Shown: positions 2-20,505 of the stretch, one piece after another
Numbering within the stretch: the first letter of the stretch is position 1
Layout: each line of letters begins with the position of its first letter
Virus record (IMG/VR): IMGVR_UViG_3300038548_000332
Location: 1-26,640 of that record
DNA: 26,640 nucleotides
Strand: one strand, 5' to 3'
From: a virus
Program-made: the position numbers and the translations under genes
The notes under the pieces: model-generated
What the model was told of the DNA's origin: nothing
The model's database searches: none
The model's input: only the letters and a program-made list of their open reading frames with translations

Positions 2-307
2 AAACCAACAGCAAAAATAGGTAGGCATTTATTTTGGTCGAACTTTGAAATAGATGAAAACTTTGAAGCAAATCAACCAAAGGATTTTATAATGCTAGGA
101 ACTGTAAAAGGCTCTGAGCAACTTAAAGAATGGCTAGGTATAAAATACGAGGGTAACATATACTATAATGGTAATCATGACCCCTGCCAGGTACTAAGAA
201 ACTGTGTGCATCCTCTAATGGGACAGCATGTGTTTAATTTTACCTCAATTTTAGGGCTATTTTTTGGCATGGGTTTTAAAATTCATTCATTTGGTAACGA
301 TTCATAA
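2..307 (+). CDS. Probable DNA methyltransferase, C-terminal part (5' end outside window)
   Basis: The frame is open from the first bases of the window, so the gene begins upstream; the first internal Met is at base 92. About 101 residues are visible. Near the start is GRHLFWSNFEI, resembling the R-x-x-FW-x-N segment of cytosine-5 DNA methyltransferases. Further on, YYNGNHDPCQVLRNCVHP followed by LMGQHVFN resembles their C-terminal region, where a GN-x-V-x-P-like motif precedes the last helix. This is motif resemblance only, and the catalytic Pro-Cys loop would lie outside the window. Such enzymes in phages usually protect the genome from host restriction. The last roughly 25 codons run through the late-promoter repeat at 238-266 and look like tail residues rather than part of the enzyme fold. 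Family is tentative; a coding region is more secure. Confidence 0.5.
   Translation, partial: KPTAKIGRHLFWSNFEIDENFEANQPKDFIMLGTVKGSEQLKEWLGIKYEGNIYYNGNHDPCQVLRNCVHPLMGQHVFNFTSILGLFFGMGFKIHSFGNDS
238..293 (+). promoter_or_regulatory. Late promoter of tail operon with 29-bp activator-like box (copy 1)
   Basis: Bases 238-266 are identical to 19425-19453, containing CCTCAATTTTAGGGCTA and ending in TTTG (263-266). Nineteen bases later comes TTCATTTG (286-293), one mismatch from the Bacteroidota -7 consensus TAnnTTTG, so the end of the repeat acts as the -33 TTTG. Predicted transcription start is near 299, giving a leader of about 25 bases before the sheath ATG at 325. The upstream part of the repeat, with the small inverted element CCT-N7-AGG, is not explained by the core promoter and is inferred to bind a phage regulator. 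The box lies inside the 3' end of the methyltransferase frame. Confidence 0.65.
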
Positions 308-324
308 ATCAAAAACCATTTATT

Positions 325-1836
325 ATGAGTGATGCCGTAGGACTTGAAAGGATATCGAAAGTTGTAGGATATAAAATCATTAAAGGAGATTTCTCGGAGA
401 CCTCGCCAAATTTACCCCAAAGAATTGCAATACTTGCTGAGGCGAACACTGCCAATCAAGGTTCATTGGATTTGACCCCTAAGCAAATTACATCGGCCCA
501 ACAGGCGGCCAATTTATATGGACTTGGTTCACCAATATACCATATAATGAGAATTTTGCGACCACAACAGGGGTCTGGTATTGGCGGAATTCCGACAGTC
601 GTATATCCACAAGCGGAGGCTGGAGGAGCAACCGCACGTGAAATTGATGTGACACCCGTTGGTGTGGCCACTAGTAATGGAACGCACACATTGAAAATTG
701 CCGGAAGGAACGGAATTGATGGTGTATTTTATGATATAAACATCGTAGATGCTGACACCATTGCGATTGTTTCAGGTAAAATTAGAGATGCTGTGAATGC
801 GGTTTTGAACGCGCCAGTTTCGGCCGTTGCAACCGCTACAGAAGCAACACTGACAACTAAATGGGCTGGATTGACAGCCCAAGAGGTGGAGGTTTCAGTT
901 GATTTGAATGATACTGATTTGGGAATTACATATGTGGTGAGTGAGTCGGCCGCTGGTTCGGCAACTCCATCTGTTTCCGCTGCACTTGCGTTGTTCGGAA
1001 ATGATTGGAACACAATTGTAATCAATTCATATGGTACGGTTACCGCGGTGATGGACACGTTGGAAGCATTCAACGGAATTCCAGATCCAACAACACCAAC
1101 TGGAAGATATGATGGGATTATTTTCAAACCATTCATTGCATTTACCGGTTCGTTGGCAGATGATCCAACATCGATCACAGATCCACGAAAAGACCAAGTG
1201 ACGATTGCCATTTGTCCCGCGCCATTGAGCACAGGACTTTCTATGGAAGCCGCTGCAAATATGTGTCGATTAGCTGGCCGACAATTTCAAGACTCTCCAC
1301 ATTTGGATGTTTCCGGACAATCTTATCCAGACATGCCGACCCCGCTTGACATCGGAAGCATGAGCGACTATGAAAACCGAGATGCCTTTGTGAAATTAGG
1401 AAGTTCAACAGTTGAGTTGTCAAATGGTGTTTATAAAGTTGCCGATTTTGTGACGACATATCACCCGGATGGTGAGTTGCCTCCACAATTTAGATATTGC
1501 AGAAATTTGAACTTGGATTTCAATGTTCGTTTTGGATATTTCTTGTTAGAGGAAATCAATGTTGTTGACCACGCAATCGCAGGTAATGACGACACGGTGA
1601 CGGCTTCAAAAGTTGTCAAGCCAAAGCAATGGAAACAAGTCATTGACAGATATGCCGAATCATTGGCATTGAGAGCCTTGATTGTTGATCCGAGTTTCAC
1701 ACAAGACTCAATAACGGTTGATATCAGTTCGACAAATCCGGATAGACTTGAAACTTTTTTCAAGTACAAAAGAACTGGATTTGCACGAATATCCTCCACA
1801 ACTGCGGAGGCTGGATTTAATTTTGGAAATGTTTAA
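325..1836 (+). CDS. Contractile tail sheath protein
   Basis: 503 residues, about the length of Mu gpL and related sheath proteins. The N-terminal third has the Mu-like signature in which a run of Ala residues leads to a FG/YG-x-GS element (AQQAANLYGLGSPIYHIM), followed by a domain with Gly-rich turns and a C-terminal domain with the NLNLDFNVRFGYF segment. The sheath polymerises around the tail tube and contracts to drive the tube through the host envelope. It is the first gene of the tail operon, directly behind the late promoter, and is followed after 10 bases by the tube gene, the usual sheath-tube order. The start is an ATG after an A/T-rich leader with no clear Shine-Dalgarno sequence. 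Identification is from family-level pattern and gene order. Confidence 0.85.
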   Translation: MSDAVGLERISKVVGYKIIKGDFSETSPNLPQRIAILAEANTANQGSLDLTPKQITSAQQAANLYGLGSPIYHIMRILRPQQGSGIGGIPTVVYPQAEAGGATAREIDVTPVGVATSNGTHTLKIAGRNGIDGVFYDINIVDADTIAIVSGKIRDAVNAVLNAPVSAVATATEATLTTKWAGLTAQEVEVSVDLNDTDLGITYVVSESAAGSATPSVSAALALFGNDWNTIVINSYGTVTAVMDTLEAFNGIPDPTTPTGRYDGIIFKPFIAFTGSLADDPTSITDPRKDQVTIAICPAPLSTGLSMEAAANMCRLAGRQFQDSPHLDVSGQSYPDMPTPLDIGSMSDYENRDAFVKLGSSTVELSNGVYKVADFVTTYHPDGELPPQFRYCRNLNLDFNVRFGYFLLEEINVVDHAIAGNDDTVTASKVVKPKQWKQVIDRYAESLALRALIVDPSFTQDSITVDISSTNPDRLETFFKYKRTGFARISSTTAEAGFNFGNV

Positions 1837-9036: not shown

Positions 9037-10253
9037 GTTGGATCGAACGATTAAATAATAAACTTATTATCACTTGTGGTGATGGCAGGGAGTTCACTCC
9101 TAAATGGAAAAATGCCGTCAAAACATTGGAATACAATGTGACTGAATTTAATTTCCCGGAGGTTTCAGGAACATTGGTTAAAAGACAAAGACCAAAGGGT
9201 CGTAAATATGGGATTGAATTTTATTTTGAAGGTGAGGATAATATTGAAGTGTCAAATGATTTTGAAGCATCCTCAAACGATCCGCGTCCATGGGTGATTT
9301 CACATCCTTATTATGACCGGATTGTCGTTCAACCGTTGTCATTGAATATTGATAACACCAAACATAATTCAACTAAGATCACAGGCACCATTATTGAGAC
9401 CATCACGGACACCAATCCACGAACGAGTGTTGATGCTCAGGATAAAATTATCGCAGATCAGGGCGCATTAAATACCACTTTTGAGGAGTCTTACGTGAAT
9501 GATGTATCACCGGTGATTGATGATGTGAATCAAATGAATGAAAATAATGACGCTTTATTTTTAGAAGGTGAGAAAGCAATCACGGACACATCAGATTTTG
9601 AAAGTTATTTCAACGCTTTCAACACTGCTAATTCAGCGATATTGAACGCAATAGATGAGCCACTCACGGCAATTAGAACATTGCAAGCGGTGATAAATGC
9701 ACCGGCCTTATTTTTAGTAGGGATTGAATTGAGGGTTGAAACTTTAAAAACTCAATTCGAAAAATTGCTTCAATCGATTGTTGGTATAACAGAATTTTCA
9801 CTGAAAAAATTGTTTGAAAATAATGCCGGTGTATTGGTTTCTGCCATGGCGCTTGCTTTGGTTTCTAATTCAACATTCAGTAGTCGGACCGATGTTTTCA
9901 GTTTTATTGAGGGATTAATTGACGACTATGCAAATTATTTGACCAACCTGGACAATATTCAAAGTGACAATTCAAATTCACCGGATAGTTTTGTTCCGGA
10001 TTTCAGGTCACAACTATTATTGAATGATTTGATAAATTTCACAGTTTCTAATTTGTTTGAAATTGCGATTGATTCACGTCAAGAAAGGTCTATAATATTA
10101 GAGGAGGACAACAACATCATCAATGTGGCACATAGATTTTATGGATTAGAGATCAATGATTCCACAATTGATGAACTGATTTCAACCAACGAAATTGGGT
10201 TGAATGAATATTTGGGATTGAAAAAAGGTAGGAAAATCGTATATTTCGTTTGA
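9033..10253 (+). CDS. DNA-circularisation-type tail protein with LysM-like C-terminus (Mu gp43 position)
   Basis: 406 residues. It starts SWIERLNNKLIITCGDGREF, the opening of the DNA_circ_N family (Mu gp43), followed by a beta domain in which GTLVKRQRPKGRKYGIEFYF and HPYYDRIVVQPLSL stand out. Residues about 130-330 are helical. The last 50 residues (NNIINVAHRFYGLEINDSTI, then GLKKGRKIVYFV) look like a tail-protein-X/LysM module, which in phages binds peptidoglycan or the baseplate. Despite the family name, such proteins are tail/baseplate components near the hub. It overlaps the preceding gene by four bases and is followed after one base by the next. Confidence 0.65.
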   Translation: MSWIERLNNKLIITCGDGREFTPKWKNAVKTLEYNVTEFNFPEVSGTLVKRQRPKGRKYGIEFYFEGEDNIEVSNDFEASSNDPRPWVISHPYYDRIVVQPLSLNIDNTKHNSTKITGTIIETITDTNPRTSVDAQDKIIADQGALNTTFEESYVNDVSPVIDDVNQMNENNDALFLEGEKAITDTSDFESYFNAFNTANSAILNAIDEPLTAIRTLQAVINAPALFLVGIELRVETLKTQFEKLLQSIVGITEFSLKKLFENNAGVLVSAMALALVSNSTFSSRTDVFSFIEGLIDDYANYLTNLDNIQSDNSNSPDSFVPDFRSQLLLNDLINFTVSNLFEIAIDSRQERSIILEEDNNIINVAHRFYGLEINDSTIDELISTNEIGLNEYLGLKKGRKIVYFV

Positions 10254-16032: not shown

Positions 16033-16210
16033 TGATGTTTATATTCAGGCAAAATATGTCGTTATAATTGATTTTATGAATGAACATCCCAATGATAGCC
16101 AATTTTTGATAACTCAATTATTGAAGAAAATACAGACAGATAGTGAATTGATTGGGTACGAAAAAGGGTTTCAAGAAGCGGTTGAACTTGACAACAAAAA
16201 AAGCGGATAA
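16022..16210 (+). CDS. Small hypothetical protein after portal
   Basis: 62 residues from the ATG at 16022; three in-frame ATGs sit immediately upstream (16013-16021) in a GAT repeat, so the exact start is open. Longer starts lie deep within the portal gene and are shadow sequence. The chain is charged and helical (MVNNDVYIQAKYVV, MNEHPNDSQFLITQLLKKIQ) with no membrane segment or known domain. It overlaps the portal stop by 11 bases, implying coupled translation. In many phages a small gene follows the portal, but the function is not known here. Confidence 0.55.
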   Translation: MVNNDVYIQAKYVVIIDFMNEHPNDSQFLITQLLKKIQTDSELIGYEKGFQEAVELDNKKSG

Positions 16211-17749: not shown

Positions 17750-18261
17750 GCACCCAGATGATAAAAAAACTCAGAAATCAACTACAGAGAGCACGGGCAA
17801 CGATAATCCGAATCCCCCAGCGGACGAGGACGTTCCTTAAACTTGCAATTGATCTGATTAAGGAGACAAGGATTTTTTGGCTCTTGTTTGCTGTTTCATG
17901 TATTATGCTTGTATATCAAATCCCTGAATATATTAAGGGTGTTACTCCTCGATATTCATTTTTTATTTTCAATCCTGAAAAGATGATGACATCTAGGAAT
18001 GCGCTTTGGCATTTAGGAAACAAAATCAGTTGGTGTATTTACATTTATTGCATTTACTACTTAGTGCCGAAAGATCATAAGCCGTACATGAAATTATTTC
18101 TTATCATGCAGGTTTCGTTGTTAGTTGAATTCTGTTTGTTTTACAATGCCGCATGGTTTATGATGATGGATAGCAAAGTTGGGTTTTCTCAATTTTTTAT
18201 TATCTTTAATGCGTTAATTCTAATTCACGTAACATGCCAGAACAAGCCGCTCAAGCCGTAG
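17746..18261 (+). CDS. Multi-spanning membrane protein in lysis region
   Basis: 171 residues. A basic N-terminus of about 45 residues (KKLRNQLQRARATIIRIPQR) is followed by at least four hydrophobic segments: IFWLLFAVSCIMLVYQIP, ISWCIYIYCIYYLV, LFLIMQVSLLVEFCLF and FSQFFIIFNALILIHVTC. The basic N-terminus should lie in the cytoplasm. No family is recognised. It shares four bases with the upstream gene and 28 with the downstream one, so the three are translated together. Role in lysis or superinfection exclusion is possible but only by neighbourhood. Confidence 0.55.
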   Translation: MSTQMIKKLRNQLQRARATIIRIPQRTRTFLKLAIDLIKETRIFWLLFAVSCIMLVYQIPEYIKGVTPRYSFFIFNPEKMMTSRNALWHLGNKISWCIYIYCIYYLVPKDHKPYMKLFLIMQVSLLVEFCLFYNAAWFMMMDSKVGFSQFFIIFNALILIHVTCQNKPLKP

Positions 18262-18635
18262 AACAAGCAGAACTGATTGCTCTATTATTCAAAATTTTAC
18301 AATTCGTCATCGTTGGTCTGTTAGGTTTGATTACATGGTGGGCGAAAAATGAGTTTAGGAAATCCGAAGAAAAGGAAAAATCATCGGCAAAAGAGAGACT
18401 AGACCGTGCAGAGAAATTAGTTGAATACAAAGAGGAACAAGCTAATAAATTAGTTGAATACAAAGAGGAACAAGCTAAAATAATTGCAGCCTTAAAAAGT
18501 GATTTGAGAAGCAATACCGAGTCAGACACCACAATCAGTAAAACGCTTGAAGAATTCAAAGTATGGTTTGCTGATCTCAAAAAAATCATGGATAAACTCG
18601 TTGTTGATGTAGAAATTCTAATAAACAAAAAATAG
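18234..18635 (+). CDS. Single-TM coiled-coil protein with duplicated 11-residue repeat
   Basis: 133 residues: a short N-terminus, one membrane segment (ALLFKILQFVIVGLLGLITW, about residues 16-35), then a long charged helix to the end. Within the helix KLVEYKEEQAN is present twice in tandem, an 11-residue (hendecad) unit encoded by a 33-bp direct repeat at 18414-18479. Hendecads continue a coiled coil with slight unwinding, so the duplication would lengthen the rod by one unit. Topology resembles the preceding spanin-like gene. No enzyme motif. The start overlaps the previous gene by 28 bases. Confidence 0.55.
   Translation: MPEQAAQAVEQAELIALLFKILQFVIVGLLGLITWWAKNEFRKSEEKEKSSAKERLDRAEKLVEYKEEQANKLVEYKEEQAKIIAALKSDLRSNTESDTTISKTLEEFKVWFADLKKIMDKLVVDVEILINKK
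18414..18479 (+). repeat. Tandem 33-bp duplication within a coiled-coil gene
   Basis: Two copies of a 33-base unit (18414-18446 and 18447-18479) differ only at the last base. Each encodes KLVEYKEEQA plus Asn or Lys. Near-complete identity at synonymous positions indicates a recent duplication, by slippage or unequal recombination, that kept the frame. Confidence 0.9.
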
Positions 18636-19194: not shown

Positions 19195-19232
19195 ATTTAC
19201 CTCAGTTAGTACTCGATAAAAAAAGCAAATAT

Positions 19233-19262
19233 TAAAAGGACCTCATTCGGGGTCCTTTTTCA
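19233..19262. terminator. Bidirectional intrinsic terminator
   Basis: AAAAGGACC and its partner GGTCCTTTTT form a stable hairpin with a short loop around CATTC, followed on the + strand by a T-run (19256-19260) and on the minus strand by TTTTAA. It ends the lysis operon and, from the other side, the ribbon-helix-helix gene, whose stop codon (19243-19245) lies inside the hairpin. Confidence 0.85.
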
Positions 19263-19416
19263 TTCTATGGTGCGGGAATTCTTGATAATACGACTCGATG
19301 TGTGAGGGTATTTTATGTTTAATAAAGTTGGCAATTGATATTCCCGTGTGCTTTTTTATGTTTTTCAAGTCCTCCATTTGAGAATCCGAGATTCTTTGTA
19401 TTTTAAATTCTCCCAT
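19243..19416 (-). CDS. Small ribbon-helix-helix DNA-binding protein
   Basis: 57 residues, encoded on the minus strand from ATG at 19416-19414 to TGA at 19245-19243. The chain is one beta strand (EFKIQRIS, 3-10), helix A (DSQMEDLKNIKKHTG, 11-25) and helix B (SIANFIKHKIPSHIESYYQ, 27-45), with the Gly between helices that is typical of Arc/MetJ/CopG repressors. A dimer would insert its two strands into the major groove. It is the only minus-strand gene found in the window and begins 8 bases from the late-promoter repeat at 19425-19453. It may therefore control head and tail promoters, its own promoter, or both. Fold recognised from pattern; target inferred. Confidence 0.65.
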   Translation of the reverse strand: MGEFKIQRISDSQMEDLKNIKKHTGISIANFIKHKIPSHIESYYQEFPHHRMKKDPE

Positions 19417-19424
19417 CTTGATAT

Positions 19425-19480
19425 TTTTACCTCAATTTTAGGGCTATTTTTTGAGATGCACAACAATTCCACATAATTTG
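19425..19480 (+). promoter_or_regulatory. Late promoter of head operon with 29-bp activator-like box (copy 2)
   Basis: Bases 19425-19453 are identical to 238-266. The terminal TTTG (19450-19453) is followed after 19 bases by ATAATTTG (19473-19480), so the second TTTG is at exactly the same distance as in copy 1, although the DNA between is different. Predicted transcription would start at about 19485-19487, almost on the ATG at 19486. On the minus strand TAAAATTG (within the repeat) lies 20 bases after GTTG and could serve the ribbon-helix-helix gene. The rest of the gap 19195-19485 is occupied by that gene and the terminator. Confidence 0.65.
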
Positions 19481-19485
19481 TGTAC

Positions 19486-20505
19486 ATGGCAAAGCAAATC
19501 TTACTATACGGTGAAATTTTTAGCTTCTCATCTGAGATGTTTTTGACCGAAATGGAGGCATTAAAAGACGATGACATCGTTTTAAGAATCAACACAATTG
19601 GTGGTGATCCTGAGTCCACATTTGGAATGATTAGTAAGTTTCAAGAACATGAGGGCCTAAAAACAATTAAAGTTGACGGTCGTGCATTCTCAATGGGGGC
19701 GTTTTTCCTTTGTTATGTTGATTTTGCTGAGGCACTTGATGTTTCGAGTTTCATTTTGCATCGTGCAAGATTTCCGGAATGGATGGAAGCAAGCGAAACA
19801 TTTTTTGATGAAGCAACACGCGCAAGGCTTGACAATGTGAACAAAGCATTGAGAAAAGCATTGGAGGCAAAAATTGATGTTACCAAATTTGAAAAGATTT
19901 CAGGGGTCACAATCGATCAATTGTTCTCCATGGATGGCCGCATTGATGTGACATTGAATGCCAAACAAGCCAAACAGATAAAATTGATTAACAAAATCAA
20001 TCCCATTACACCGGAAATTCAAGCATCTATTCAATCCAATAGTGGTGAAATGATGCAGATGGCCGCAAAGTTTGTGGACACTACTGAGGCAAAAGAGGAA
20101 GTTGTTGAAGAAATTAAAATTTTAAATAAAGATACTAATATGGACTTAGCTAAATTAAAAACCGATCACCCCGCCTTGTATGCTCAGGTTATGCAAGCCG
20201 GAATGGAGGCGGGCGTTTCACAGGAAAAAGACAGGGCGGGCGCATGGATGGCGTTTGCTGACATTGACATAAAGGCAGTGACCGAAGGTGTGAAAAGTGA
20301 CAAAGCATTATCCGCAACGGATATGGCTGAGTTGACCCGAAAGGGTATCAGTGCCAAATTGATTGGCAATGCTGAAGAAGAAGCACCAGGTGATGTTGTT
20401 GTTCCTCCAACCAAAGACAAGGTTGTTCCGGAAGCGCAAGTGAAGGTGAATGAATTCGAAGCCGCTGTAAATAAAAAATTGGGTCTTAAAACTGAACAAA
20501 CATGA
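19486..20505 (+). CDS. Prohead protease fused to scaffold (ClpP-like, lambda gpC type)
   Basis: 339 residues from the ATG at 19486; a GTG six bases earlier is in frame but would overlap the -7 box. KQILLYGEI is the first strand of the ClpP/SppA-like fold. GRAFSMGAFFLCY carries the nucleophile Ser69 and SFILHRARF carries His92, the usual order for phage prohead proteases. Residues from about 150 are linker, and from 219 a helical scaffold (LKTDHPALYAQVMQAGMEAG, EKDRAGAWMAF). Protease and scaffold act inside the procapsid. No leader of normal length separates promoter and start. It shares four bases with the decoration gene. Confidence 0.85.
   Translation: MAKQILLYGEIFSFSSEMFLTEMEALKDDDIVLRINTIGGDPESTFGMISKFQEHEGLKTIKVDGRAFSMGAFFLCYVDFAEALDVSSFILHRARFPEWMEASETFFDEATRARLDNVNKALRKALEAKIDVTKFEKISGVTIDQLFSMDGRIDVTLNAKQAKQIKLINKINPITPEIQASIQSNSGEMMQMAAKFVDTTEAKEEVVEEIKILNKDTNMDLAKLKTDHPALYAQVMQAGMEAGVSQEKDRAGAWMAFADIDIKAVTEGVKSDKALSATDMAELTRKGISAKLIGNAEEEAPGDVVVPPTKDKVVPEAQVKVNEFEAAVNKKLGLKTEQT
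20140..20505 (+). CDS. Internal start: free scaffold protein (Nu3/Mu Z-like)
   Basis: An in-frame ATG at 20140 would yield the last 121 residues of the protease gene alone, beginning MDLAKLKTDHPALYAQ. The upstream bases TAAATAAAGATACTAAT closely match the leaders of the tube (TAAATAAAATACT) and capsid (AAAAAATAATACT) genes, yet here they lie inside a coding region. Lambda Nu3 and Mu Z are made in the same way from within the protease gene. The helical, charged protein would be the main scaffold during procapsid assembly. Evidence is leader resemblance plus precedent. Confidence 0.6.
   Translation: MDLAKLKTDHPALYAQVMQAGMEAGVSQEKDRAGAWMAFADIDIKAVTEGVKSDKALSATDMAELTRKGISAKLIGNAEEEAPGDVVVPPTKDKVVPEAQVKVNEFEAAVNKKLGLKTEQT

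Follow-up and report, generated by a model that had tools for sequence, protein, structure and literature searches.

A putative ribbon-helix-helix regulator with paired, lineage-specific operators at the head and tail operons of Bacteroidota phages

The DNA considered here is a viral contig of a contractile-tailed phage (26.6 kb; hereafter ‘the window’, meaning the whole analysed stretch of 26,640 nucleotides), in which a gene for a small ribbon-helix-helix (RHH) protein lies between two separate blocks of late genes. We propose that this protein is a regulator dedicated to two structural-gene operons, tail (sheath) and head (protease/capsid). It would bind a 17-bp dyad, probably as a pair of dimers, and the dyad is carried twice, upstream of the tail operon and between the RHH gene and the head operon. 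Bound about 49 bp upstream of the transcription start, beside the -33 element, the protein would most likely recruit RNA polymerase, and head and tail genes would thereby be switched on together; at the head site, the bound protein would also shut off RHH synthesis and cap its own level. It is highly probable that the RHH protein is the factor binding both sites, and to the fuller reading, in which activation of both operons is combined with self-repression, we assign a probability of roughly 60%. An earlier note on this DNA had suggested a self-contained switch acting on both operons; at the level of sequence, that suggestion is supported by the co-occurrence of gene and box in relatives, by promoter spacing, and by the overlap of the dyad with the RHH promoter.

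The tail block of the window begins at 325, ahead of the portal gene, and the head block at 19486; the minus-strand open reading frame (ORF) of 57 codons lies between them, and the plus strand carries every other recognised gene (Table 1). The closest cultured counterparts of its sheath, portal, protease, and capsid proteins belong to Flavobacterium phages FCL-2 and FL-1 and Cellulophaga phage phiSM, in which the sheath gene lies downstream of the capsid genes in one run. Searches of cultured phages gave no DNA match to the window and no RHH protein match. The hairpin at the end of the RHH gene has a counterpart in a similar place in locus L135, with other stem bases. At the left edge of the window, a contig-edge ORF runs through box copy 1 to position 307; in the related contig G001 the upstream gene ends before the box, so that the gene end in the window may be misread. 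A perfect 32-nt direct repeat with 33-nt spacing (18414-18478) lies within ORF 18234-18635, corresponding to about LVEYKEEQA repeated.

Table 1. Features of the window that bear on the proposed regulation (putative elements assigned from sequence).
Feature	Position	Strand	Remarks
Putative operator copy 1, same 17 bp as copy 2, centre 249	241..257	+	upstream of tail (sheath) operon
Putative -33 TTTTTTG, tail-operon promoter	260..266	+	from sequence
Putative -7 TTCATTTG, tail-operon promoter	286..293	+	last base 44 nt from dyad centre; identical in G001
Tail sheath gene, first of tail operon	325..1836	+	phrog_165, E 1e-80
Hairpin flanked by T runs; may be a bidirectional terminator	19234..19259		at 3' ends of RHH gene and upstream plus-strand operon
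RHH (Arc/CopG-like) regulator gene, 57 aa	19243..19416	-	strand at about residues 4-9, helices 11-24 and 28-46
Putative operator copy 2, 17-bp imperfect dyad TACCTCAATTTTAGGGC, centre 19436	19428..19444	+	between RHH gene and head operon
Putative -7 TAAAATTG, RHH promoter	19433..19440	-	inside operator copy 2
Putative -33 TTTTTTG, head-operon promoter	19447..19453	+	20 nt upstream of -7
Putative -33 TTG, RHH promoter	19461..19463	-	20 nt upstream of -7 on minus strand
Putative -7 TAATTTG, head-operon promoter	19474..19480	+	last base 44 nt from dyad centre; conserved in G001
Head maturation protease gene (ClpP-like), first of head operon	19486..20505	+	PF00574, E 5e-7; head maturation protease PHROGs

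The product of the minus-strand ORF (MGEFKIQRIS...KKDPE), described in the earlier note as Arc/CopG-like and antisense to the other genes, is, by its predicted strand-helix-helix fold and its sequence relationship, a member of the ribbon-helix-helix (Arc/MetJ/CopG) superfamily. A 60% identical protein is encoded in the same place in the nearest relative (tblastn, E 1e-16), and single-sequence searches of viral contigs with the window protease and with the RHH protein gave no match. About 160 loci were gathered by sheath and capsid alignment searches, and the 55 that include the protease and its upstream region were scored with an RHH family profile seeded from four members; homologues were present in 31 of the 55, on the minus strand and ahead of the head protease (about 1 kb from it in L148). 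The AlphaFold2 model of the window protein (pLDDT 84.5) has an extended N-terminus followed by the two helices. The top Foldseek and VIA-align matches of the model were RHH proteins, with E-values non-significant for so short a chain, and P22 Arc and plasmid CopG were among the closest structural matches. The family profile matched the RHH protein ORF56 (PDB 2k9i; E 0.0025), and 7 of 20 family members matched the Arc-like repressor family phrog_582 (best E 1.6e-4); the window member by itself matched an unnamed PHROG only. Its Pfam RecU match (E 0.03) falls short of the family cut-off and was disregarded. A chance antisense reading frame, to which the shortness of the ORF and the overlap of its 3' end with the terminator hairpin might point, has next to no probability given that the RHH fold is indicated by both model and profile, and is already refuted by the protein-level conservation at this place in 31 loci. 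Six loci (L093, L110, L120, L121, L123, and L128) have tandem double-RHH ORFs in the same place as the single RHH genes, which would fit a two-domain DNA-binding unit, as if the dimer were fused in one chain.

The boxes at 238-266 and 19425-19453, of which the window has no further copy, match at all 29 nt. Within them, the 28-mer TTTACCTCAATTTTAGGGCTATTTTTTG occurs exactly twice (239-266 and 19426-19453; chance expectation 0.00 with at most 3 mismatches), and the direct-repeat pair spans 37 nt at 92%. As had been noted earlier, the RHH gene starts near copy 2, its start codon being 9 nt from the 28-mer. As to the symmetry of the box, given earlier as CCT-N7-AGG, CCTCAATTTTAGG has 5 of 6 symmetric pairs, which is unremarkable by itself, but dyads recur at the same promoter position in relatives. 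A third TTTACCTCA, matching the first half of the box, occurs at 19196-19204, between the final gene of the tail/lysis operon, which it closely follows, and the terminator, either by chance or as a half-site.

The exact window box is absent from all other viral contigs searched. Every split contig (sheath mapped, tail block ahead of portal) has an element common to the region before the sheath gene and the region before the protease gene, which is the RHH/protease divergent region where an RHH gene is present; the co-occurrence of gene and repeat extends to ten further RHH-bearing split contigs that carry a common element at both places. The boxes, mostly 17-bp dyads, vary in sequence by lineage (TACCTCAATTTTAGGGC in the window, TTACAT-N5-ATGTAA in G002, TTCC-N9-GGAA in G003, and AATGTATACATT in G008), as does the length of the shared stretch (about 70 nt in G004, 57 nt in G005, 24 nt in G011, and about 95 nt in the Bacteroidota genome bin G040, which also has the paired box). 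For seven of eight viral lineages, the similarity of the pair exceeds that of all 300 control windows, and the eighth has TTCC-N9-GGAA at both places. A third copy of the box was sought in all contigs and none was found. One might regard the repeat as a relic of promoter duplication at the time the tail block moved, kept alike by recombination and having no regulatory role, the more so as the long duplicates of G040, G004, and G005 include the -7 region. We consider this very improbable: G002, G003, and G008 have little beyond the dyad in common between the two copies, the remainder having diverged, which argues for a common binding factor and not for recombination between copies. Likewise, the boxes differ between lineages and agree within each, which favours a common binding factor over mere duplication, and the position of the dyad recurs. 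Such lineage-to-lineage change is as expected under coevolution of the operator with its presumptive RHH protein.

The RHH gene goes with the divided arrangement of the late genes. It is present in 11 of the 12 split contigs, namely the window, nine viral contigs (three of them, G011, G012, and G022, closely related), and a genome bin from Bacteroidota, and in none of 14 contigs in which the sheath gene follows the capsid genes and head and tail form a single run (Fisher p 1.6e-6; 7.6e-6 without near-copies; both values uncorrected for kinship). The RHH gene is likewise missing from five Bacteroidota genome loci (Allomuricauda, Pedobacter, Christiangramia) whose sheath gene comes after that of the capsid. 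In the capsid tree, the RHH-less rows form two clades plus single rows, and the label switches four times. In L088, the place directly before the protease start (about 2880-2905) is taken not by an RHH gene but by a GC-rich hairpin, ATACCCCCC-N6-GGGGGGTAT, with a T run after it.

The earlier note held that relatives keeping the repeat without the gene would speak against a switch of this kind, and there is one such relative: G023 (L104) has a paired 33-nt box (16089-16121 and 29033-29065) with its dyad 44 nt from a perfect -7 element, and no RHH-family ORF in its 39.5-kb contig. It is the sole exception to the link between gene and box, all other mapped split contigs having the gene. The contig may be incomplete, with the gene in an absent part; alternatively, the gene may have diverged past recognition, or another protein may read the box. 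A 56-residue ORF of G023 (9352-9522), considered as a substitute regulator, has no Pfam match and no relative in the other contigs and was rejected. From G023, one could argue more generally that the box is read by another phage or host factor, such as a late activator, and that the RHH protein is a chance neighbour or controls something else. We judge this improbable, since elsewhere the RHH gene adjoins one of only two sites in every mapped split contig, the RHH-less phages with head and tail together have no dyad at this position, and G023 itself may be incomplete or have a regulator that escaped recognition.

In flavobacterial sigma-A promoters, TAnnTTTG occupies -12 to -5 (PMC9723704). 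The putative late promoters of the window read TTTTTTG-N20-TAATTTG (head) and TTTTTTG-N19-TTCATTTG (tail), both off the sigma-A consensus, with the -33 TTG about 20 nt upstream. Across most lineages, 43-45 nt separate the dyad centre from the final base of a TAnnTTTG-like -7 element downstream of it, which places the dyad at about -49 from the start site; exceptions are G008 (38.5 nt) and G011 (47 nt). When all spacings from 20 to 51 nt were tried on 24 protease-side promoters, the joint score of dyad and -7 element peaked at 44 nt (10.72, versus 9.4-10.3 at other spacings; block-shuffle null 9.20, sd 0.15). The 44-nt peak was not distinct among ten sheath-side promoters, a set too small alone, and no dyad peak was found at this position in phages with head and tail together. 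For the window, the 44-nt assignment used the second-ranked -7 candidate, and the single-sequence scan of the spacing analysis missed its protease-side dyad. Elements of the -7 type are AT-rich and easily found by chance. A perfect TAnnTTTG is present in 5 of 22 late promoters of RHH phages versus 10 of 14 in RHH-less ones (p 0.006); where head and tail genes form one run, most phages have a perfect TATATTTG. A combined score of -33 and -7 puts the late promoters of RHH phages only marginally below those of RHH-less phages (p 0.06). A dyad near -49, beside the -33 element of a promoter whose -7 is poorer, would occupy the place expected of an activator site. Its recurring position upstream of the late -7 elements favours activation of the late operons, and its place next to -33, combined with a non-consensus -7, makes recruitment of RNA polymerase the most likely effect of the bound protein. 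The head operon is expected to start at about 19485, and its mRNA may be almost leaderless; no more than a few bases separate the end of the -7 element from the protease start codon, both in the window (19474-19488) and in several relatives.

The earlier suggestion that the -7 element of the RHH gene lies inside the repeat agrees with the sequence: a putative minus-strand promoter, TTG-N20-TAAAATTG, leads to the RHH start, with its -7 within the dyad of box copy 2. The dyad overlaps this -7 in the window and in L135, and in six other lineages its centre is 18-23 nt upstream of the end of the RHH gene's -7. The overlap favours self-repression, since protein bound at the head site would block its own promoter and so would shut off its own synthesis. 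It would also suit a different reading, in which the RHH protein binds both sites and represses head, tail, and its own gene, keeping the structural genes silent until late in infection. Repression is the usual mode among characterised RHH proteins, and SvtR of the archaeal virus SIRV1 represses both its own gene and a structural one through a site that lies far ahead of the promoter (PMC5569661). We nevertheless think repression of the late operons unlikely, as the dyad lies upstream of the late core promoters instead of covering them, with a distance to -7 that recurs, and as the late -7 elements are poorer than in RHH-less relatives, whereas a strong promoter under repression would show the reverse.

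For the preferred reading, that of late activation with self-repression, SvtR still provides a precedent for a viral RHH protein controlling itself and a structural gene: like the window protein it is small, and its sites are imperfect inverted repeats at its own promoter and that of a virion structural gene. It differs in being a repressor, in acting on an archaeal promoter, and in not being described as tied to paired head and tail operons. AmrZ (AlgZ) of Pseudomonas aeruginosa is a precedent for an RHH protein with both activities, since it activates another promoter while repressing its own (PMC3325190); it also resembles the proposed circuit in its dyad site of about 18 bp with short half-sites. 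AmrZ is, by contrast, a global regulator of its host, has own-promoter sites at a greater upstream distance (-93 and -161), and needs other factors.

P22 Arc and plasmid CopG are like the window protein in fold and size, and Arc is also a phage regulator; they are repressors of immunity or copy-number genes. We know of no paired late operators for either, nor are Mu C and phi29 p4, to our knowledge, RHH proteins. Mu C (PMC4461284) and phi29 p4 (PMC3100819) are phage-encoded activators of late promoters, as proposed here for the RHH protein, and p4 both activates and represses (PMC3100819). Late-gene control in Bacteroidota phages seems little described, and a literature search on late-gene promoters and transcription of Flavobacterium phages found no paper in the collection searched.

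That an RHH-family activator couples head and tail operons in split-late-gene Bacteroidota phages through a fast-evolving operator is a proposition on which we would place even odds. If it is true, a compact two-site circuit recurs across many phages with different operators and would explain how head and tail production is kept in step despite the late genes lying in two separate blocks. Each lineage would then have its own protein and its own dyad pair, giving about ten natural protein-operator pairs in one promoter frame, in which protein residues can be matched to DNA bases across lineages, and the system would be a test case for RHH activation of a -7/-33 type promoter.

A code relating residues to half-sites was considered and rejected. 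In L103, L116, L124, and L132, Gly follows the strand and TTCC-N9-GGAA is present exactly or with a single mismatch, but L115 and L118, which have Asn, score like L124, and L094, L100, L110, and L123 have Gly without the motif, so that the association may be taken as a hint only. The divergent regions of L130 and L152 each contain two dyads, about 28 and 26 bp apart, respectively, and only the protease-proximal one is in the 44-nt frame.
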